Positions 6,954 to 39,733 of a stretch of 39,733 bases of DNA are shown here, piece after piece (positions within the stretch are counted from its first letter, which is position 1; each line of letters begins with the position of its first letter). The notes beneath the pieces were generated by a model that did no database searches, was not told the DNA's origin, and worked only from the letters and a program-made list of their open reading frames with translations. A program made the translations under genes and the position numbers. This stretch comes from Candidatus Synechococcus spongiarum LMB bulk15M (GTDB lineage: Bacteria > Cyanobacteriota > Cyanobacteriia > PCC-6307 > Cyanobiaceae). The DNA lies in NCBI GenBank assembly GCA_002018045.1, contig MWLD01000057.1:1-39733 (forward strand). The letters run 5' to 3'.

Positions 6954-7025
6954 GGTCGATTAGCTCAGCGGTAGAGCGCATCCTTCACACGGATGATGTC
7001 ACTGGTTCAAATCCAGTATCGACCA
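6954..7025 (+). tRNA. tRNA-Val (anticodon CAC)
   Basis: Complete cloverleaf of 72 nt including the discriminator A. The acceptor stem GGTCGAT pairs with ATCGACC, the D arm is GCTC-AGCGGTA-GAGC, the anticodon arm is CATCC-TTCACAC-GGATG, and the T arm is ACTGG-TTCAAAT-CCAGT. The seven-base anticodon loop gives CAC, reading GUG valine codons. CCA is not encoded. A short GC hairpin follows at about 7043-7056. Confidence 0.97.
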
Positions 7026-22103: not shown

Positions 22104-22649
22104 CTAGCCCACACTTGCCTGGTCCTGCTGACCTCCTGCGGGATGCCGTTCAAACCGCAAAAGGAAGCGTCGATCCCAGCGCCCTCCGTTCAAACGCCTG
22201 CAACAGGCTCGGCAGGCCAGGCCTTTTACGCGTCGTTGATAGGGGGTGACGGTTCCACAGCATTCACAACGGGCTTGCCAGGATGCCGGGGTCCGGGGGA
22301 TGGGAAAACGGTGCCGAACGCTGACGGTCAGCCCCGTTCTCCGGCCGTTGATGTCCTCCATCTTGGCGTGAAAACAGGGGCCATGGCTTTCCCGTCGGTG
22401 AAGGACCAGATCCACCCACGCGTGAATCATCTCGTGGACCAGTGTGCTGTGGGTGGCCGATGTGGGCAACGGTGACAGCACGGGCAAAGAGAGGTTAATC
22501 GCCGCAAGGCCGCCACGGCGACGATAGGAACCTGCAGCACGGCTCATGCGGCGGCTCCAACCGAGGCACAGTTGGTCGTAGGGAATGGCTTGGTCGAAGA
22601 ACGTCTGGTTGTAGCGATGGAATAACGGTGGCAGGAACGCTATGCCCAT
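22104..22649 (-). CDS. SprT-like zinc metallopeptidase
   Basis: 181 residues from MGIAFLPPLFHRYNQTFF. The SprT-like domain is shown by the metalloprotease helix THSTLVHEMIHAWVD (HExxH) and the third-ligand region RESHGPCFHAKMEDIN. A C-terminal zinc-ribbon follows with CECCG and CRACCRRL. Family members in eukaryotes (Spartan) cleave DNA-protein crosslinks; the bacterial role is not settled. The ATG at 22649 was chosen because the upstream in-frame part is Gly/Pro-rich and overlaps the promoter region of the divergent gene. Confidence 0.85.
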   Translation of the reverse strand: MGIAFLPPLFHRYNQTFFDQAIPYDQLCLGWSRRMSRAAGSYRRRGGLAAINLSLPVLSPLPTSATHSTLVHEMIHAWVDLVLHRRESHGPCFHAKMEDINGRRTGLTVSVRHRFPIPRTPASWQARCECCGTVTPYQRRVKGLACRACCRRLNGGRWDRRFLLRFERHPAGGQQDQASVG

Positions 22650-22747
22650 GTCCCATGTCCCATGTCCTCCAGGCCCTGATTTTAACCCTAGCCCCCGGAG
22701 GGGCCAGCCGTCCGGCACAATTTCCTTGCGCCGCTGCTGCCTGGTCC

Positions 22748-27506: not shown

Positions 27507-30500
27507 TTAGTCCAGGGAGGTCAGACGACTTTGGGCCAGGCGGTGCTGCTGCTGAGCCTCGTTCAGACTAGAGCGCATCTTGCTCACCACCTCCCGGGGA
27601 GCCTGATCCAGAAATCCGGGATTGCGCAAGCGCTCGGAAAGAACGGTGATCTCCTTCTCCGCCTTTCCGAGATCTTTCTGCAGACGACCCCGCAGGGCGT
27701 CCACATCCACAAGACCACCGACCGGCAGGAGAATTTGTAATTCACCACTGACGGCACTCAAACAGCGGGGCAGGTTCACGGAGGTGGTGCTGATGTCCAC
27801 CGTCCCGGCCCTGGTGAGGCCGGCAATGTCCGCTTGGGCCTCCCGTAGGAGTCCACACAGTGCTTCGTTGTCGCTCACAAAGAGCACGTCCGCAGTCTGG
27901 GAGGGTTTCAAGCCCGCCACTGCCCGCAGGTTGCGCACCACGCGAACGGCGTCGATGAGTGCGGCAAACTGCTGTTCCAGGTGATCGTTGACGTGGGCTG
28001 GATCCAACTGGGGCCACTGCTGCAGGGCCAGAAAAGTGTGGTCGGGAACACCAGTCAGCCGATGCCAGAGCTCTTCGCTGATGTGGGGCATGAAGGGATG
28101 CACCAGCACCAGCAGTTGCTCCATCACCAAAGCCAGAACCTGCCGGGCCGTGTGGCGATCCTCCGGATTGCTGCCGTTGAGGCGCCGCTTGAGCAACTCG
28201 ATGGTCCAGTCGCATACGTCGTTCCAGGCAAATTCATAGAGGAGTCTGGCAGCTTCTCCCAAGCCGTAGTTGTCCAGCTTCTCTGACATGGTCCGACTGG
28301 TGCGCACCAGACGGGAAAGGATCCAGCGATCTGCGATCAAGAGCCTGGCAGGGTCCGGCTGGCCAAGGGATGCGGGGGTGGCCCCATCCAGATTGAGGAG
28401 GGCAAAGCGGGTGGCATTCCACAACTTGTTGGCAAAGTTCCGCGAGACCTCAACGATGTTGGACGTCTGTGTGGTGGGGTCGAAATCCAGGCGAATGTCC
28501 TGCCCTGCTCCGGCCACGCCCCGCACCATGGAGAAGCGCAGGGCGTCTGCCCCATAGCGCTCACAGAGCACCAGGGGATCAATCCCGTTGCCTGCGGATT
28601 TGCTCATCTTGCGATTCTGCTCGTCCCGCACCAGGCCGTGAATGTATACATCCGCGAAGGGCATGGTATTGGTGCAGGCCGAGGCCATCATCGTCATTCG
28701 AGCCACCCAGAAGAAGATGATGTCAAACCCGGTGAACAGTGTGCTATTGGGATACCAGCGCTGCAGGTCTGCATTCTCCTCATCCGGCCAGCCCATGGTG
28801 GAGAAGGGCCAAAGCGCGCTGGAGAACCAGGTATCCAGAACGTCCTCGTCCTGCTGAAGTTTTGCGTTGGGACCATAACGCCGCTGCGCTTCCTGGTGGG
28901 CTTCGGTTGCGTTACGGGCCACCACATAGGGTGTGTCACTTCGTAACCGGGAGTCGGTTTCACTCACCACGAACCAGGCTGGAATGCGATGCCCCCACCA
29001 CAACTGGCGGCTGATGCACCAGTCGCGGATCTCCATGAGCCAATCCTTGTACACCTTGGCCCAACGCTGGGGAACAAAGCGAGGCTGGCCTTGGTTTATG
29101 GCGGTCAAGCAGGCCTCAGCCAGAGGTTGGGTACGGACAAACCACTGCGTGGACAGCAGTGGCTCCACCGGAACTTTGCCCCGGTCGGAATAGGGAACAG
29201 TGTGACGGTAGTCTTCCACTTTTACCAGGGCCTGTTCAGCGGCCAGAGCGGCCACAACGGCTTGCCGTGCCTCGAAGCGGTCCAGGCCACGGAATTGGCC
29301 TGCGGCTTCACTCATGCGCCCGTCTTTGCCCATGATTGTCACGAGGGGCAGGCCATGGCGCTGACCGATGGCAAAGTCGTTGGGGTCATGGGCCGGGGTC
29401 ACCTTTACACATCCGGTGCCGAATTGGGGATCCACGTGATCATCAGCAACGATGGGAATCTCGCGACCCACAAGCGGCAGAGTGAGGGTACGTCCCACCC
29501 ATGGTGCATAGCGCTCATCGCCGGAATTCACCGCAACCGCCACATCCCCCAGCATGGTTTCGGGTCGGGTGGTGGCCACCTCCAGGTGGCCGGAACCGTC
29601 GGTGAGGGGATAGCGGAAATACCAGAGATGTCCATCCACCTCTTTCATCTCCACCTCCAAGTCACTCACAGCCGAGCCTGAGGCAGGGCACCAATTCACC
29701 AGATATTCCCCGCGATAAATCAAACCCTTGTCATACAGCCTCAGAAAAGATTCCTGTACAGCCTGGCTGAGTCCCGGGTCCAGGGTGAAGCGCTCCCGTT
29801 GCCAATCCACGGAAAAACCCAGCCGACGGAGCTGGGTCACGATGGTTCCACCGCTCTCCTGTTTCCAGGACCAGGCTCGCTCCAGGAACGCTTCACGGCC
29901 AAGTTTGTCTTTGCTGGTTCCTTCCCGCTCCAGTTGTTTTTCCAGGAGAGTTTGTACCGCAATCGAGGCGTGGTCTGTTCCTGGCAGGCAGAGGGTGTTG
30001 TATCCTTGCAACCGCTTGAACCGCACCGTGGTGTCGATCAGAGCCGCTTCAAAGGCATGTCCCATGTGCAGGCTGCCCGTCACGTTAGGGGGCGGAATCA
30101 CCACCCCATAGGGTTGTCCAGGCGCCTGGGGATCGGGGTGGAACGCATCACACTGCTCCCAAGCCGACTGCCAGCGGGATTCCGTTGGCTTGGGGTCGTA
30201 TTGCCCCATTGGCGGCATCGCTGGCCGCTGATCCACTGGCTGCTGATCCACGACGTTCCTGCCCCGCTCCAGCACGGTGAGCATAACATGACCGTCCCTG
30301 ATCTCAATGGCCATCGGATCACCAGGCGCCAAACCCGTCTGCCTGGTATAGGCCTTGCCAATCAGTAAATTTCCATTGGCCTGGACCCTGGCTGCAAAGC
30401 CGAGTGTACGGTCCCTTCTGGATCCAGCGCCAATCTGCACGCCCCGGGCCTGGAGAAGCGCTTCGTAAAAGGCGATGAAATTGAGGCGTTCCCGGCCATC

Positions 30501-30602
30501 CTTTGTGGTGGTGACGTAGCCACAGGCGCGGATGACGTCTTCTTTGCCGGCGTCAGCAAGCTCACGGACCTTATCGAGAAGCTCTGTGTGTTTGAGCATC
30601 AT
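27507..30602 (-). CDS. valS: cyAbrB DNA-binding domain fused to valyl-tRNA synthetase
   Basis: A single uninterrupted frame of 1031 residues from [12 protein letters not shown]. Residues 1-112 are a cyAbrB regulator domain ([42 protein letters not shown]). A short linker ([16 protein letters not shown]) joins it to complete ValS. ValS motifs: HMGH at 179-182, the editing-domain [25 protein letters not shown] at 665-669 and a C-terminal coiled-coil arm. ValS alone could start at Met129 (30218) or Met132, but no Shine-Dalgarno is visible there. ValS charges tRNA-Val in the cytosol. A free-standing cyAbrB lies 187 bp upstream. Whether fused, separate or both products are made is unknown. Confidence 0.93.
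30222..30251 (-). repeat. 15-bp tandem duplication in the AbrB-ValS linker
   Basis: On the coding strand two 15-bp units, GTGGATCAGCAGCCA and GTGGATCAGCGGCCA, stand back to back and differ at one base. They encode [10 protein letters not shown] exactly at the joint between the AbrB domain and ValS, where a stop codon would be expected. Confidence 0.9.
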
Positions 30603-30789
30603 TCGTGCGAAGGGGTTTGCGTCATCGTTCAACGTCGCCAACGGTGGCGTCTGTCGTTGCTCAAGGCAGCACGGACATCCGCAAAGCGAGTCCGTATCAG
30701 GCCCGGCTCCCCCTGACACAGGAAGGCTTTTCAACAGGCCGGTACTGCGGCAGGGGACAGCCGATCCTGAGGCGTTACGCGGCGAACAA

Positions 30790-31155
30790 TTACTCCTCTC
30801 CGCCGTCGTCTTCGCTGCCCAGAGGAACAAGGCGGATGTTTTTCCGCCCCAGCTTGATCTCGAACTCGTCACCGGGGTTCAAGCCAAGCTTTTTGGTGTA
30901 GGCCTTGCCAATGAGCAGGTTGCCGTTGCCCTGAATCTTGGTCATAAAGCTGAGCTTGCGGCCACTCTTGGAGCCACCGCCGCCCCCAATCTCCACACCT
31001 TTGGCATCAAGAACTGCTTCGTAGAAAGCCGTGAAATTAAGGCGCTCACGCCCATCTTTGGTGGTCGATACATAGCCACAGGCACGGACCACATCCGATT
31101 TGCTGGCATCAGCAAGCTCACGGACTTTGTTGAGAAGCTCTGTTTTTGTCAGCAT
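30790..31155 (-). CDS. cyAbrB-type transcriptional regulator
   Basis: 121 residues from [21 protein letters not shown] codons at 31167 and 31182 are alternatives. The protein has the cyanobacterial AbrB layout: N-terminal helices, [19 protein letters not shown], then [23 protein letters not shown] and a C-terminal [22 protein letters not shown] with an acidic end. cyAbrB proteins bind DNA broadly and tune nitrogen and carbon metabolism genes. The first 59 residues agree with the ValS-fused domain at about 46 positions, so the two are tandem paralogues. Lies 153 bp downstream of tRNA-Val on the same strand. Confidence 0.92.
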
Positions 31156-31537: not shown

Positions 31538-34500
31538 TTACGACAGCGGACCATGTCCCAGTCTCCGAAATGCCCTCAGAGCCTTCAGGCACATCTCCAC
31601 GGAACGGTAGTGACCGTACGCTGCCAACTCTTCCTTCTCCATGATGGGAAATGTTGAGTAAACGTAACGCATCTCCTCCTCGCTGGTTATGCCGTAGAGG
31701 AGGAAAAACAGGGCATCCAGTCTTGCGCGCAGATGGAGACGGCGCTGGGCATTCCAAATGAAGGGTGGTCCCCTATGGCCCAGATCACGGGCAAAAGCGG
31801 TGAGGTCCCATGCGGTGTACGTGAGTTCCAGCACAGTAGCCCTGATGATGGCAGCGACTGTGGTGGAACCGATCCGCAGGTTGAAGTGGTCTGGCGGCAC
31901 AACAGGGAGCTGCTCGAGAATATGGAGCGTCAAGCTTGTTCCATACAGCTTCTGGCGGACGACGAAATCAAAGACGATGGAATTGAGGTTTGCGAGAACA
32001 AAACAAGCCCAGGACGGCCGACTGCCGATGTGACCGTTCAATAACAATAGAGGAAGTTTATGGCTGACGGCAGCGCGCGGCAGAATTGCTGCGATCATGG
32101 TCCTCGTGTTTGTTGTGGACGTGATGTCCTTAAAGGCAACAACCCATGCCTCGGGCCAGAACCAATGCCTGGTGTCCACACGGACATAATGCCGCCAGCG
32201 TGGTCGCCGCTCGGGACTGGCCTTTTCGGAGTTCTGCAAGAGACGCTGCTGGCCCGGACGAAACATGTTGCTCCGATTGACCACAACGTCGGCAGCGCGA
32301 TGGTCGAAGGCTTGCATCATTTTTCCCTCGTAGAGAGGCAGCCAGCCGCTGTCTTCAGGGGTGCTGCGAAACAGGTGGGAATCGGAACCCATATCGAACA
32401 TCCTCCGGTAGGTCACTGGCCATGTGCGGTTGACCGTGTCTCCCGATCGGTTGACCAGTACAGGTAGGCGCCGATAAATCCCTGTGGTGATCCGAGCGTC
32501 CCGACGCGTCCGAAACAGGGGCGCGGTGCCGGTATTGGGATTGACCCGGGCAAAGTCTTCCGCACGCAGAAGAAACCGCCGCTCCGGGTCCTTCAGCTCG
32601 GCGATGCTGTTGAGGCAGAACGCACAGTGGGCTGCGCCAACCACGGAAGAGGGACTGGTGCGCAAGGGGTAACGGCGTACATACCCGTCCCCGTCCGGCA
32701 ATGACTTCTGTGGATTCTTTCGGGCAACAAAGACGCAAAACCGAAACGATCCATGAATATCCGGGAAAAAGGTCTTTCGGTTTTCAAAGTCGTACAAGAC
32801 TTTCAGACCCCCTGCCTGCACGACACGGCGAAAAAAGGCTGCCCCCGCTTTCCCGGACACCAAGCTGGACGGTGTCAGCATTCCCACCAGCCCATGGGGC
32901 TTGACCAACGCCATGGCCCGCTCCACAAAGAGCGCATAGAGATTGAGATCCCCTCCGGAAAGCAGGGGATAGTCTCCACAGGATCTGGCCACACGGGATT
33001 GGGCGGCTGCACGCGCTGCTGCATGGGCGTAGGCCACCGCTTGAGGATCCTGGAAACGTTGCAGTTGTGCAATGCGCTGCCGCCGTGCCGCCGCATGGGG
33101 TGCGCGCGCCATATCAGGGCAGTTTTGCGCAAACCATTCCACCTGTTGCAGCTTTACCCTGTCCCATGGCGGATTGCCGATCACGGCATCAAAGCCGCCG
33201 TTGCGCTGCTCGCCGTCCCCCTCCGGCCAAAGGCCGGGACAGGCCAATTGCCAGTGGAAAAACCTCTCTTCGGCAACGATGGCGTTCATCCGATCCAGGA
33301 GTTGGCCCAGCCGCTGGTCGGGGACTGGAACAACGCCTGTCACAACATGAACGGGATTTCCCCAACGACCACGCCACAGGTCGCGAATCATGTCCATGTC
33401 CCCGGTTGAGGCTGCTCCCAACCAACGCCCTGCATGGATGGCAGACAAAACGGCTTCCAGCGGTGCATTGGCTTTCTCCAGGTCATGCCAACGCTCTGCA
33501 CTGGCTGGTCCGGGCAGCGTTGCCGTATCCATGGTGGTGATCGCGGCAGTGGCTCTGCATCCGGATTGCAGCAATGTCTGCAGCGTTGTGGAGCCGTCTG
33601 CATCCCGAATCGTCTTCACGGCATCCCGAATCCAACTACCAAACAGACTGTTGCCGCAGTGCAGATGACGATCAAGATGTCCTGCATGAGTGGAATCGCC
33701 GTGGAGCATCAACGCCATCCGCGCCAGATCTACAGCCATGGGATCTTTATCCACACCGTAGATACAATGCTGTAGCACCAGATTGCGCACGGTCCAGGCA
33801 TCCCGGGCTTCCGGTTGATGGTTGCCAACGGATGAAGGACGATTCGATGCGGTGGCAGCAAAAACAGCGTCGCCGAGACGATCCAGAAGACCCGTCAGAA
33901 CGTTGCCCGTGCCCATGGCGGGATCGCAAATTTTCAAACGGAGCAATTGCCGGACCGAGCGGCCGTGCATCAATGGAGCAACGGTTTCCTGAAGAACGAG
34001 ATCCACCAGTCCCCTTGGGGTGTAATAGCAACTGGCTCTCTTCCGGGACAACCTGCTGGACTCCAGGGTGATCCGGCCCGTATCGTCCCGCTTCAGCCGG
34101 AAGGCCATGAGTTGTTCATACAACGCGCCAAGCTGCTCCACAGCCAGATCGCCATAATCGATGGGCTCACCGTTGCGGGCAAAGCACAGCCCCGTCAGGG
34201 CATGGGCCACCGTCTCCTCCTTGCAGGCCAGGTTGTCCAGCAGGGGCATCGGTTGCGTCGAGAAGAGGCGCTGTCCCAGTCGGCCCAGGCCCGGTTGCCG
34301 GTGGGCCGTGTCGTGGAAGAGGGCGGCCATGGTTGTCCAGGAACTGCGCTGCTCCGTCCCCTGCCCCTTGCGCCGGGTCTCGCTCACCAGGGCGGCCAAG
34401 CCATGGAGACTGTAGCCGTTGCCCGCTGCATGGACGTGCAGAAGGCCACGGCTTTCTCCATAGAGAAGGAACAGCAGGCGATAGAGAAGAATCAGGCTGG

Positions 34501-35266
34501 CCTCCCGCACCGCTGCCCGGGGTGCTGTTGGGGTAGCCTGAGCCACGACTGTGGCCAGGTTCGGGAACACCTGACGGCAGGCCTGCTGTATGAATGCAGT
34601 GGCCATGCGCTCTTGACGGTGTCCATGGGCGGTCAAGGCGGTCCCCAGCCAACTGTTGCCGTCCGGGGGGCATCGCAGGGCCTGGGGGCGAAAAAACACC
34701 ACGAACCGCTTCAGGAGGTCAGGCTGCTGGAGCGCCTGGAGCAGGTGGATGTCCAGAAATCCCTGGGTCACGGAGCGGGCTTGGCCGTCGTACAACCGCC
34801 AGCAGTTGCCGTTGCTGAGGATGCCCCAGCGGGGCCGTCCCTCCTTGCGCAGATCCGCCACCATGCAGGCCGCCGGCGCCGGTTGGTGGCCGTGGCCCTG
34901 GTCCAGGTCCGCTTGCCATGCCGTTGTCTTGAGCACCACCAGGGCTTGGCCGTCCTGCTGCCGGCCTGGGGAGTGTCCCGGTTGGGGTGGTCGACGTCGT
35001 TGCCCCTGCCGCCAACCCAGACAACGGAGCACCGGCCGGATCACCCTGCGTCTGGTGTCTGCCACCTTGAGCGCCAGCCCGGCGCTGACACCGGAGACAA
35101 CGGCCTCCAACTTCAACCGGACGGTCTCCAGTTGCCGGGTATCCAGTGCTTGCCACGGCTGGGTATGTTTCAGTTCCTTGTCCAGAAAGCCGCGGCTGAA
35201 GAGACGTCCTCTTCCCGGGTTGCCCCACGACGCCCCATGGGTGTGGACCTGGGCATGGGTCACCAT
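31538..35266 (-). CDS. Large Eco57I-like N6-adenine DNA methyltransferase (type IIG-like, nuclease motif apparently lost)
   Basis: 1242 residues in one polypeptide. N-terminal region resembles the nuclease part of type IIG enzymes, with the recognisable WGILSNGNCWRLYDG strand. The usual acidic/ExK catalytic residues are not visible: where relatives read V-E-x-K, this reads VVLKTTAW near residue 113. The methyltransferase core has the SAM motif DPAMGTGNVL (448) and catalytic NPPW (698-701). The C-terminal 400 residues are probably target recognition, ending in the conserved LDALFFLLYGITSEEEM. Likely an active methylase without cleavage, or a phage-defence component. The start at 35266 leaves 24 bp to nadC on the other strand. 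No separate nuclease or specificity gene is nearby. Confidence 0.85.
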   Translation of the reverse strand: MVTHAQVHTHGASWGNPGRGRLFSRGFLDKELKHTQPWQALDTRQLETVRLKLEAVVSGVSAGLALKVADTRRRVIRPVLRCLGWRQGQRRRPPQPGHSPGRQQDGQALVVLKTTAWQADLDQGHGHQPAPAACMVADLRKEGRPRWGILSNGNCWRLYDGQARSVTQGFLDIHLLQALQQPDLLKRFVVFFRPQALRCPPDGNSWLGTALTAHGHRQERMATAFIQQACRQVFPNLATVVAQATPTAPRAAVREASLILLYRLLFLLYGESRGLLHVHAAGNGYSLHGLAALVSETRRKGQGTEQRSSWTTMAALFHDTAHRQPGLGRLGQRLFSTQPMPLLDNLACKEETVAHALTGLCFARNGEPIDYGDLAVEQLGALYEQLMAFRLKRDDTGRITLESSRLSRKRASCYYTPRGLVDLVLQETVAPLMHGRSVRQLLRLKICDPAMGTGNVLTGLLDRLGDAVFAATASNRPSSVGNHQPEARDAWTVRNLVLQHCIYGVDKDPMAVDLARMALMLHGDSTHAGHLDRHLHCGNSLFGSWIRDAVKTIRDADGSTTLQTLLQSGCRATAAITTMDTATLPGPASAERWHDLEKANAPLEAVLSAIHAGRWLGAASTGDMDMIRDLWRGRWGNPVHVVTGVVPVPDQRLGQLLDRMNAIVAEERFFHWQLACPGLWPEGDGEQRNGGFDAVIGNPPWDRVKLQQVEWFAQNCPDMARAPHAAARRQRIAQLQRFQDPQAVAYAHAAARAAAQSRVARSCGDYPLLSGGDLNLYALFVERAMALVKPHGLVGMLTPSSLVSGKAGAAFFRRVVQAGGLKVLYDFENRKTFFPDIHGSFRFCVFVARKNPQKSLPDGDGYVRRYPLRTSPSSVVGAAHCAFCLNSIAELKDPERRFLLRAEDFARVNPNTGTAPLFRTRRDARITTGIYRRLPVLVNRSGDTVNRTWPVTYRRMFDMGSDSHLFRSTPEDSGWLPLYEGKMMQAFDHRAADVVVNRSNMFRPGQQRLLQNSEKASPERRPRWRHYVRVDTRHWFWPEAWVVAFKDITSTTNTRTMIAAILPRAAVSHKLPLLLLNGHIGSRPSWACFVLANLNSIVFDFVVRQKLYGTSLTLHILEQLPVVPPDHFNLRIGSTTVAAIIRATVLELTYTAWDLTAFARDLGHRGPPFIWNAQRRLHLRARLDALFFLLYGITSEEEMRYVYSTFPIMEKEELAAYGHYRSVEMCLKALRAFRRLGHGPLS

Positions 35267-35290
35267 GGCTCCAGCGCCACTCTTTTCCCC

Positions 35291-36193
35291 ATGGCTGTCC
35301 TGTCCTGGACCCCGGAACTCCGCCATAGCCTAGAACGCTGGCTACAAGAAGACCTGGGCCGTGGTGATCTCAGTGGCGCCGCCGTAGGGGACGGGCAAGG
35401 CTGTGCCGTCTGGCGCGCCAAGGAGCCGGGCCGCTTTTGCGGTGGTCCTCTTGCCGTGGAGTTGTTCCGGCTGCTGAACCCGGCGGTGCGCGTGCAGGTG
35501 CTGGCGGCGGACGGAGAGGACGTGATCCCGGGTACGGAACTCCTGCGCCTCCACGGCCCTGCCGCGGCCCTTCTGGCGGGTGAACGGGTGGCCCTGAACC
35601 TGGCCATGCGCCTGTCCGGTGTGGCCACAGCCACAGCCCACCTGGTGGACCAACTGGCGGGCAGCGGCATTCACCTGGTAGACACCCGCAAAACCACACC
35701 CGGTCTCCGGATCCTGGAGAAATACGCTGTCCGTTGTGGGGGTGGCCTCAATCACAGAATGGGCCTGGACGATGCGGTGATGCTGAAAGAAAACCACCTG
35801 GCCTGGGCTGGTGGCGTGGTCCCCGCGTTGCAGCGGGTGCGGACGCAGGCGCCGTGGCCGGTGGCAGTGATTGTGGAAGCGGAAACGGAAGCCGAGGCCC
35901 AGGCGGCTGTGGGCGCAGGCGCTGACGGGGTGTTGCTGGATGAGTTCACCCCGGAGGCGGTGGCGGAGTTGGCTCCCAAGCTGCGTCACACAGCCAGGCA
36001 GCGGGGGAAGACCCTGGTGCTGGAAGTCTCCGGTGTCCGCCCCGGGCAATTGCGAGCCTACGTTTCCTGCGACGTTGACCTCATCTCCATCAGCGCCCCT
36101 GTGACCCGCTCCCCCTGGCTGGATCTCGCCATGCGCCATGAAGGCCGTCTCGTCCGTCCAGCGGCAGGACGTCTCCGAACTCAAGGCAGATAA
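35291..36193 (+). CDS. nadC: Nicotinate-nucleotide pyrophosphorylase (carboxylating)
   Basis: Quinolinate phosphoribosyltransferase; makes nicotinate mononucleotide for NAD synthesis. 300 residues. Motifs: LQEDLGRGDLSG, ALNLAMRLSGVATAT, VDTRKTTPGLRILEKYAVRCGGGLNHR, MLKENHLAWAG, VIVEAETEAEAQ and LEVSGVRPGQLRAY. Intact. Divergent from the methylase gene and convergent with the PfkB kinase. Confidence 0.96.
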   Translation: MAVLSWTPELRHSLERWLQEDLGRGDLSGAAVGDGQGCAVWRAKEPGRFCGGPLAVELFRLLNPAVRVQVLAADGEDVIPGTELLRLHGPAAALLAGERVALNLAMRLSGVATATAHLVDQLAGSGIHLVDTRKTTPGLRILEKYAVRCGGGLNHRMGLDDAVMLKENHLAWAGGVVPALQRVRTQAPWPVAVIVEAETEAEAQAAVGAGADGVLLDEFTPEAVAELAPKLRHTARQRGKTLVLEVSGVRPGQLRAYVSCDVDLISISAPVTRSPWLDLAMRHEGRLVRPAAGRLRTQGR

Positions 36194-37264: not shown

Positions 37265-37776
37265 CCTTGCCTCGGCCAACTGGATTCAGCCTGCAACGGC
37301 CCTGGGCCGTTCGGCAAGCGGACCCGGCAAACCGATGCATCAGCGCCAAAGCTCCCTCAACCTCGAACCCGTCTCAAATTGGAACATCCCTACCACAAAG
37401 CCATGACAGCTTGGGAAGTGTCCACAAGGAAACCCCGAAAACACCAGGGCGCCCCGAAACTTGCGCCTTCCGCCTGGCCCGGCCTGTATCGGCAGGAAGG
37501 GAGAAGAACGATTGACAGAAGGAGCAACTCCGGCCTTAGGATGGGCAAGCCGTTTTTGACTTTGCCCAGAAGCGCCCATGAAGCCCATGAACAATCCGGA
37601 TCCGAAGCTGGTGCATCTTGGCGAAGACGTCCCATGGGGTGTGGATGGAGAGAGAGAAGACCTGACGGCTAGTAAAAAGAATGTTAGAAACGTGTCTTTC
37701 GTAACCAGTAAGGAGTACGGAAGGAGTAGAAGCGGTCCAGAGGTCCAGAGGTCCAGCACACCGGGGGTGGTGTGTC
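37265..37776 (+). other. 512-bp gap upstream of the fibronectin protein
   Basis: No convincing gene. A possible promoter begins with TTGACA at 37511-37516. A run of 2.9 copies of GGTCCAGA occurs at 37734-37756, just before the start codon at 37777. A short open frame at 37578-37853 (MKPMNNPDPKLVHL) has no support beyond being open and overlaps the next gene. Confidence 0.5.
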
Positions 37777-39733
37777 ATGAGGTGCGTCCAACGGGAAGCT
37801 GGCGCACCTCGTCTGGCCCCCACATCTTCAACAGGCTCCCGGTCCAGGGCTGAAGCGCGTTCCGCTGGTGGGGCTTGTTTCCGCCGCCGTCTGCTGGCGC
37901 TGTTGCTGGCCGTTCCCGGCCTGTTCACTGCTGCCCCCGGCCTGGTTGTTGCTCCCACTGCGCTGCTGCTCGGCGCGCTTTCGCTGGTCGCCCCCGCGCC
38001 GGCTGCCGCGGACGTGCTGGTGAGCAACTTGGGGCAGACGACGGATGATACTTTTTATGGGGCCTACAATCCGCAAAGAATAGTATCTGGGAGACGGGCG
38101 ACTTGGGAGCAGTTACTATCCCTGGACAACGCGAATTTAGCTCAACAGTTCACTACGGGAAGCAGCTCTCAGGGTTACATTCTCAACAGCGTCGAAATAG
38201 AATTATCACGTCAGGATGCCAATCGTCGAATTGTTGTGGTGGAGCTCTGGTCTTCCAGCAACAGCGGTACGCCGAATGCCAAACTACACGACTTGACGGG
38301 ACCAGCGATCCAGCCAGCCGGGGTAAATACTCTCACCTTCACGGCCCCGGCGAACACCGTGCTTTCGGCGAACACCAGTTATTTTGTTGTATTTTACAGA
38401 GGACCGAGCAGAGGGTCCGGACATCTCGCCACAGCCAGTACCACAGCAAGTCTTACGTCCTCGGCAAGCGAGGATTCCGGCGGACTGGCCGGGTGGAGCA
38501 TCGCGAACACGCTGCGTTATAACTACTTCCCCGACAATAGCCCTATTGTATGGAGTAACAACGCGAACAGGGCGTTCCAGATACGCGTCAACGGCTCCGT
38601 CGTCCCCGGCGAACCCACGGGTCTGACGGTAACGCCGGGGAACGCGAAGCTGGATCTGAGCTGGACCGCGCCCACGGGCACGGTGACGGGGTACGATGTG
38701 CATTACACCTCGGCTGCGTCTTCGGGTAGCGATGCAGTGGCGGACGATGCGACGGTGCAGACGGGCAATACGGCCACGGCTGCGACCGGCTGGCTGGCGG
38801 TGACCCGCAGCGGCACGACGGCCACGCAGGCGATAGCAAGCCTGAGCAACGGCACCACCTACCGGGTGCGTGTGCGAGCGAAGACCAGCAACGGCAACGG
38901 AGCTTGGGTGTTCGGGACGGGCACGCCCAAGGCGCCCCCGGCGGCGCCGACCAATCTTTCCACGTCGGCCGAGGAGGAGTCATTGACCGTCACCTGGACG
39001 GCCTCGACCTCGACCGGTTCCGCCGCCCCCACGTACTATGAGGTGGCGTTCGACGTGGCGACCAGGACCGTCAGCAATCTACGCTACACGGCGCGCACGC
39101 CGGACGGGACGACAACGAGCCTGACAATCGACAGCGACAGTTCCGGCCTGACGATTGAGGACGGCACCCAGTACCGGGTGACGATTCGCGCCTGTAACCC
39201 GGTCTGCAGCGCCTACACGGGCAACGAAACGATCTGGACGGTAGTGAAAGCACCTGCCGCTATCGCCAACCTGGTCGTGACGCCGGGCGACGAAACGCTG
39301 GCTTTGTCCTGGACTCTTAACTTCTCCGGCGGCACCATCGTCCGAGGGGCGCCCACCGTCTACGAGGTGGCCTACACCACCTCGACCACCGTGGACGACG
39401 ACGCGGCCGTGGGCACGGACCCGGCCACCGAGTGGGTGGACGCGGGCTACAGCGACAGCAACCTGGCGACCAGCTACACGATCACCGGCCTGACCAACGG
39501 CCAGGCCTACCAGGTGCGGGTTTGGCCGAAGCGCATAGTGGTCTCCCCCAGTGGGGAAGCTCACTTCGCTAGCAGAGGTTTCGGCACGGGCACGCCGGAG
39601 GGGACGATACGGGTGACGCTCGGTCCGTCCAGCGTCACGGTGGAGGAGGGGAAGAAGGCGTTGCTGAATCTGGGGTTCTCCCGCTGCGTGGAGGGGCATG
39701 TCACGTCGATTCGGGTCACCACGACGCGGATCC
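37777..39733 (+). CDS. Secreted multi-domain protein with fibronectin type III repeats (3' truncated by window)
   Basis: Open from ATG 37777 to the end of the window (652 codons, no stop). An unusually long basic N-region is followed by a hydrophobic export signal (RRRLLALLLAVPGLF to about residue 70) with a likely cleavage site after APAAA (78). Residues about 79-275 look like a choice-of-anchor-type beta domain (LVSNLGQTTDD, FTTGSSSQGYILNSVEIELS, ANTSYFVVFYR). Three fibronectin type III domains follow, beginning near residues 279, 387 and 492 (EPTGLTVTPGNAKLDLSW, APTNLSTSAEEE, ANLVVTPGDETLALSW). A further repeat starts at about 608 with SSVTVEEGKK. Such proteins are known to be numerous in sponge-associated Synechococcus and are thought to contact the host; that role is inference. 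Confidence 0.87.
   Translation, partial: MRCVQREAGAPRLAPTSSTGSRSRAEARSAGGACFRRRLLALLLAVPGLFTAAPGLVVAPTALLLGALSLVAPAPAAADVLVSNLGQTTDDTFYGAYNPQRIVSGRRATWEQLLSLDNANLAQQFTTGSSSQGYILNSVEIELSRQDANRRIVVVELWSSSNSGTPNAKLHDLTGPAIQPAGVNTLTFTAPANTVLSANTSYFVVFYRGPSRGSGHLATASTTASLTSSASEDSGGLAGWSIANTLRYNYFPDNSPIVWSNNANRAFQIRVNGSVVPGEPTGLTVTPGNAKLDLSWTAPTGTVTGYDVHYTSAASSGSDAVADDATVQTGNTATAATGWLAVTRSGTTATQAIASLSNGTTYRVRVRAKTSNGNGAWVFGTGTPKAPPAAPTNLSTSAEEESLTVTWTASTSTGSAAPTYYEVAFDVATRTVSNLRYTARTPDGTTTSLTIDSDSSGLTIEDGTQYRVTIRACNPVCSAYTGNETIWTVVKAPAAIANLVVTPGDETLALSWTLNFSGGTIVRGAPTVYEVAYTTSTTVDDDAAVGTDPATEWVDAGYSDSNLATSYTITGLTNGQAYQVRVWPKRIVVSPSGEAHFASRGFGTGTPEGTIRVTLGPSSVTVEEGKKALLNLGFSRCVEGHVTSIRVTTTRI

Follow-up and report, generated by a model that had tools for sequence, protein, structure and literature searches.

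Tandem repeats behind promoter-like boxes as a candidate expression switch for exported repeat-domain proteins in a cyanobacterial genus of probable sponge symbionts

The analysed window is one whole contig (G000:C48, 39,733 bp, G+C 61%) of a draft genome, G000, of 1,500,513 bp in 84 contigs that is 73.98% complete. At its end lies an ORF on the forward strand (37777..39732) which begins with the ATG at 37777, is open at the contig end after 652 aa, and encodes an apparently exported choice-of-anchor R/fibronectin type III protein. The choice-of-anchor-like beta domain of the original prediction is confirmed by a match to NF041539 (38128..38595, residues 118-273, 95.6 bits against a cut-off of 30), as are at least three fibronectin type III domains, with PF00041 matches over the Pfam cut-off at 38611..38907 (42.5 bits), 38944..39198 (27.4 bits) and 39262..39522 (25.8 bits). 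The whole protein scores 75.4 bits against fn3 (PF00041, cut-off 25, E 4.1e-21) over three stretches, and the Pfam scan otherwise gave weak fn3-like or Ig-like matches only. A further repeat claimed for the window edge was not confirmed: the last 51 aa matched no Pfam family and, by eye, more closely resemble the beginning of a Calx-beta-like unit than they do a fourth fn3 domain. The predicted export signal is in line with the N-terminus (37777..38010), which by inspection looks like a Sec signal, with a basic n-region, about 40 hydrophobic residues and a predicted cleavage after APAAA (APAAA/D). Elsewhere, the reverse strand of the window encodes an Eco57I-type restriction-modification methylase (31538-35326, 1262 aa, PF07669) and a valyl-tRNA synthetase ORF (27507-30872), with an AbrB-like stretch in front (residues 134-197) that probably belongs to an upstream gene sharing this open frame. 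The window also contains Val tRNA genes at 6954 and 31309, and CCCATGT three times at 22645-22665.

The signal-like N-terminus is common to a family of paralogues. A tblastn search of the own genome found this stretch on C51, C55, C79, C67 and C82 at 63-83% identity (76% over residues 1-97 for C51), ending in PAQA/Q (C51, C55, C82) or VQA/H (C67). The bodies of the paralogues differ: by Pfam, C51 has four fn3 stretches and two He_PIG, C55 has Calx-beta and LapA, and C82 has Calx-beta and He_PIG over the cut-off. The C55 gene (L021 380-2410, reverse strand) is broken in frame at a seven-C run, after which another frame resumes and encodes, like C82, a proline-rich linker and a cadherin-like stretch; this is a pseudogene, a sequence error or a poly-C switch. 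By blastn, homology among the paralogues extends upstream past the start codon.

In the window, this upstream homology begins with a conserved box (37428..37500), at which blastn homology with C51 and C79 starts and which is partly seen upstream of other copies. Alignment of the copies places behind it a promoter-like pair (37512..37542), comprising TTGACA (37512-37517), a 19-nt spacer and TAGGAT (37537-37542). This is followed by a leader ORF (MKPMNNPDPKLVHLGEDVPW.., 37578..37853), which overlaps the start of the main gene in a different frame and whose coding status is only suggestive. Within the leader, the alignment shows a degenerate -10-like hexamer, TAGAAG (37727..37732), directly before a tandem array of three units, GGTCCAGA GGTCCAGA GGTCCAGC (37734..37757), the last with one base changed. 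A GGGGG (37763..37767) nine bases before the ATG was noted by inspection as a possible weak ribosome-binding site, a position occupied by AGGAG or GGGAG in C18 and C79. A consensus promoter scan of 37300-38100, which allows spacers of 16-18, returned no promoters, and the output of Tandem Repeats Finder does not include the array, three units being too short. The leader ORF matched no Pfam family, and a leader DNA pattern had no matches in genome contigs or in viral contigs.

A DNA search of the own genome with window positions 37380-37800 gave 18 matches, which fall at 16 places on as many contigs when the window is counted and the three matches on C35 are taken as one place. In the oriented cassette, the 5' part consists of the conserved box, TTGACA with its -10-like hexamer and the leader ATG (MKPMNKPDPKLV..), and the 3' part has the layout of a second -10-like box, tandem (GGTCCAGA)n and a start codon, where GTGTGTCATGAGG or similar is the start of the exported protein. 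In C48, C51, C55, C79, C18 and C67, the start codon behind the array and the signal-like stretch share one reading frame. Two or more units stand in tandem in 13 of the 16 copies, with n from 2 to 8: seven units in C51, five in C55, four in C35, three in C48 (the window), two in C79, eight in C18 (one GGTCCAGA, six TGTCCAGA, one TGTCCAGG), five of GGTCCGGC in C67 and five of GGCCCGGA in C72. The C82 copy has no array, and the C34 and C28 copies stop before the array position. Ahead of the array, the hexamer reads TATAAT in six of the 13 (C51, C29, C37, C58, C40, C73) and TAnAAT in ten (TACAAT in C18 and C55, TAAAAT in C67 and C72); TATAAG is found in C79 and TAGAAG in the window, and the hexamer is lost in C35. 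A two-unit GGTCCAGA pattern with up to two mismatches has 49 overlapping matches in the genome, compared with five for the reversed pattern. With its short array and degenerate -10 box, the window's gene is possibly a member of the family that is frozen or only weakly mutable; the case for a promoter array is strong for the family and weak for the window's own gene.

Five cassette copies in the own genome terminate inside the array at a contig end (C37, C58, C40, C73 with at least six units, C29 with at least five). Such ends were considered as proof of variation and set aside, because shared repeats break assemblies regardless; the arrays may, for their part, help to explain the breaks of draft genomes at these genes. 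A variant unit fills the whole array at C18, C67 and C72, and one array in another species (G006:C17) consists of two homogeneous blocks. Independent point changes would not yield uniform variant arrays, which therefore point to gain and loss of units. As read from the sequences, this turnover is a trace of past slippage and not evidence of present switching.

The proteins themselves have a narrow distribution. In a sample of 151 family genomes, fn3 was found in seven, namely G000, G001, G002, G003, G006 and G007 of the genus and G057, and choice-of-anchor R in ten, namely G000, G002, G003, G005, G006 and G007 of the genus and G052, G057, G132 and G148; these are counts among the genomes listed, which include seven genus members for each domain, with a further 121 and 124 no-match genomes standing outside the lists. 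Published work places FN3 proteins in five of six Ca. S. spongiarum genomes, strain m9 being the exception, and finds them absent from all 19 free-living cyanobacteria compared (PMC6506613). Both sets of counts agree with the predicted enrichment in sponge symbionts and rarity in free-living relatives, and close homologues throughout free-living Synechococcus were not found. An exported, repeat-domain, adhesin-like type that is scarce in the rest of the family is supported for the window protein; the original interpretation is plausible and largely in print already, with host contact as a putative part of it. The window protein also has relatives on two MAG contigs, one of Chloroflexi (L154, 50% identity over residues 276-629) and one of Rhodobacteraceae, the latter from the sponge Aplysina aerophoba (L155, 53% over residues 121-381; PMC5649159); neither contains an exact array of at least three units of 6-9 bp, and the relatives reflect either domains common across phyla or mis-binned contigs.

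The genus is represented by ten genomes, G000 (own) to G009, one genome per species. The cassette DNA of the window is absent from the nine others, apart from a weak 32-base match in G008, and five of these nine carry arrays built from different units, among them ATCGG, AGGAGCGC and GATCGCCG; many of these arrays begin within a few bases of a TATAAT, and most precede exported proteins. Such arrays thus recur in six of the ten genomes, G000 included, with units that differ between species. The layout in G003 is TGCTATAATCGG(ATCGG)nCGGCCATGAGG or nearly so, with the ATG 5 nt behind the array; n is 7 at five gene-preceding loci (C84, C8, C73, C20, C78) and 10 at C44, and further ATCGG arrays lie at the contig ends of C42 and C55, with a variant on C82. 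The C78 array precedes an exported-looking protein outside the domain hits. The same genome has (TCGGG)6, (GATGGCCG)5 and (TGGCCGGG)6, the last about 10 nt from its TATAAT. The pattern CTATAATCGGATCGGATCGG occurs at nine places in G003 and at none in the nine other genus genomes, and its reversed form has no match.

Six places in G006 have TGCTATAATCGC(AGGAGCGC)n, with n from 2 to 11 and boxes from TATAAT to TACAAG (the search with this unit covered four genomes), and (GGAGAGCC)7 and (GGCTCAGC)7 also stand behind TATAAT. G005 has (GATCGCCG)n at six places, with n from 8 to 17, TATAAT at two and weaker boxes at four. Two G005 arrays precede other exported-looking proteins, with likely starts 181 and 244 nt behind the array; behind the (GATCGCCG)n promoters of L265 and L266 (G005:C80, C106), the exported-looking proteins belong to another family, with the motif ..APxCTSANxDGSYTVPxNWALKPSGLAANTNFRLLFVTSTT... 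One (GATCGCCG)-type array with n = 4 is present in G004:C19, for which no gene behind the array was identified; nearly the same promoter has four units there and eight and nine in G005, a difference between species. G009 has (GGAAGCA)16 with the weak box CACAAT. The stretches examined in G001, G002 and G007 contain no such array, apart from a 9-bp array in G007, while G008 has no fn3 match and lies outside the stretches sampled for arrays.

The association with this class of genes was assessed by counting perfect arrays (unit 4-11 bp, at least three units, at least 24 bp) in 40 stretches around fn3 or choice-of-anchor R genes of G001-G007 and G009 (296,291 b) and in 20 control stretches from G003-G006 and G009 (321,622 b). 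The domain hits G001:C16, G002:C53, C78, C97 and C173, and G007:C87 were left out, and G006:C63 was added later. Arrays are concentrated at the repeat-domain genes, with 20 near them and four in the controls (6.8 vs 1.2 per 100 kb), counts that are not independent, many arrays within one species sharing ancestry. At the start of the array, an exact TATAAT is present in nine of the 20 and at least five of six matching bases in 13, including L169 on the strand opposite the gene, compared with 11 and 235, respectively, of 10,000 random control places and with none of the four control arrays at the five-of-six level. All 13 box-adjacent arrays come from the 15 with units of 5, 7 or 8 bp; the five with 6- or 9-bp units (L167, L171 second, L175, L183, L186 second) reach 4/6 at most. 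Two control arrays, (ACACCAGC)6 (L205 1-48, G006:C10) and (CGACC)5 (L199 3637-3661, G003:C12), sit at a contig end or close to one and could be signs of additional loci like these. The array patterns had no matches in viral contigs.

The family shares one feature with simple-sequence-repeat phase-variable loci, a tandem array of a short unit placed at the promoter, the 5' UTR or the beginning of the coding region of a surface gene. We consider it probable that these slippage-prone promoter and 5'-UTR repeats vary the expression of an exported surface-protein family, where the present change in unit number and its effect are what we infer. In the proposed mechanism, an array of 5-, 7- or 8-bp units sits directly behind the -10 box and before the start codon. 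Where it begins only a few bases behind the hexamer, transcription would start in the array, which would then form the initially transcribed region and much of the 5' UTR. Slipped-strand mispairing would add or remove units. Each such change would alter the initially transcribed sequence and how far away the start codon lies, and promoter or message output would then shift locus by locus, yielding a mixed population of surface phenotypes, in proteins that would meet the host. An effect on expression is suggested by analogy with the behaviour of hmwA-type arrays in Haemophilus influenzae, for which transcript and protein fall as (ATCTTTC)n units in the promoter region become more numerous (PMC8262952). 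For the array promoters, a -35 box at the usual spacing was not established, several G005 arrays have boxes weaker than TATAAT, and a second promoter-like pair further upstream is confined to the window's species. RNA structure was considered as the switch and rejected: predicted fold stability rises with n and start-codon access swings between 0.43 and 0.57 in G006:C8, but in folding predictions for n of at least 2 this access hardly changes in three of four contexts.

Among the alternatives, the one that survives best, though we hold it unlikely, is frame switching in the window's species, in which translation would initiate at the leader ORF and continue across the 8-bp array, and slips would leave the leader fused to the protein, out of frame past its start, or stopping at a TGA that overlaps the ATG. 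All three frames are indeed found (fused in C51 and C79, overlapping in C48, C55 and C67, stop on ATGA in C35), and the leader is open through the array in 11 of the 12 copies that have both, the exception being C18. Homology starts at the leader ATG in C55, C72, C40 and C67, and in the first 35 codons every gap is 6 nt and pN/pS is 0.59 in frame, compared with 0.94 and 0.86 in the other frames. However, 13 of 200 column shuffles gave a ratio as low as that observed, gaps in C18 and in the 3' part of the leader have lengths not divisible by three, arrays of the other species of the genus have no such leader, and the start codon behind the array is by itself frame-locked to the protein body. 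The leader as translation start was initially the favoured reading and was demoted in view of the leaderless arrays elsewhere and the -10 box between leader and array. As part of the preferred promoter-array mechanism, the leader ORF might add frame-dependent effects in the window's species, although the evidence that it is coding is weak.

Somewhat less probable still is that these are ordinary exported FN3 proteins, with arrays that are neutral or the product of functionless decay. In its favour, FN3 proteins have already been described from these symbionts (PMC6506613), the array in the window is short, and the argument for switching is drawn from sequence. Neutral arrays, however, should not begin at -10 boxes in several species with differing units, nor should they reach a density about five times that of control stretches, and eight choice-of-anchor R stretches from other genera (53,181 b; five from G057, and G132, G148 and G052) contain no arrays. 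It is highly improbable that the repeats are regulator-binding sites for transcription or translation whose number is no switch, as proposed for the TAACTGA heptamers: short direct repeats do occur near start codons in some cyanobacteria (PMC4679880), but units here vary between species and within one genome (ATCGG, TCGGG, GATGGCCG and TGGCCGGG in G003; AGGAGCGC, GGAGAGCC and GGCTCAGC in G006), which a sequence-specific regulator would not tolerate.

Promoter-repeat switching of expression is best known in animal-dwelling bacteria facing immune pressure. On slightly better than even terms, we favour the wider view that these photosynthetic sponge symbionts possess, as a genus, a phasome of many exported, adhesin-like genes with a slippage-prone promoter repeat before each one, so that symbiont cells within a single host would differ randomly in their surface proteins. 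On this view the units have been renewed in each species, which suggests that a mutualist has long been selected to keep its surface variable. If this is true, a long-term partner varies its surface as pathogens do, at proteins thought to touch the host, with a switch anatomy that spans a genus of (probably) cyanobacterial sponge symbionts. Among the titles and abstract openings listed by a necessarily incomplete literature search, none reports phase variation or promoter repeats for Synechococcus spongiarum or sponge symbionts.

Several known systems share parts of this anatomy. The window protein is of the published kind of FN3 eukaryote-like protein of sponge cyanobionts, whose enrichment is already known (PMC6506613); promoter repeats or variable expression are not mentioned in the accessible text of that source, and the promoter array is the new point. 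The TAACTGA heptamers resemble the present arrays as short direct repeats near start codons, some of them in cyanobacteria, and show whole-unit indels between two Cyanothece strains (PMC4679880). By contrast, TAACTGA is one fixed heptamer described before genes of many functions (PMC4679880), whereas the units here vary and sit behind the -10 boxes of mostly exported proteins. Simple-sequence-repeat contingency loci likewise have short repeats where slippage can alter the expression of surface genes, and a survey of H. influenzae names penta-, hepta- and octanucleotide repeats as candidates (PMC2651432). Tetranucleotides dominate in that survey (PMC2651432), whereas promoter units of 5 and 8 bp are found here, in a cyanobacterial genus. 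A further close parallel is hmw1A/hmw2A of H. influenzae, in which a 7-bp array lies in the promoter region of large exported adhesins, at several loci with one array each (PMC8262952), as do the units of 5, 7 or 8 bp described here. The Pfam scan shows the window protein to be unrelated to the HMW type. Unit variation and its effect have been demonstrated for hmwA (PMC8262952) and would, in the present genus, follow by inference. The hmwA array lies between promoters P2 and P1 (PMC8262952), whereas the arrays described here begin directly behind the -10 box.
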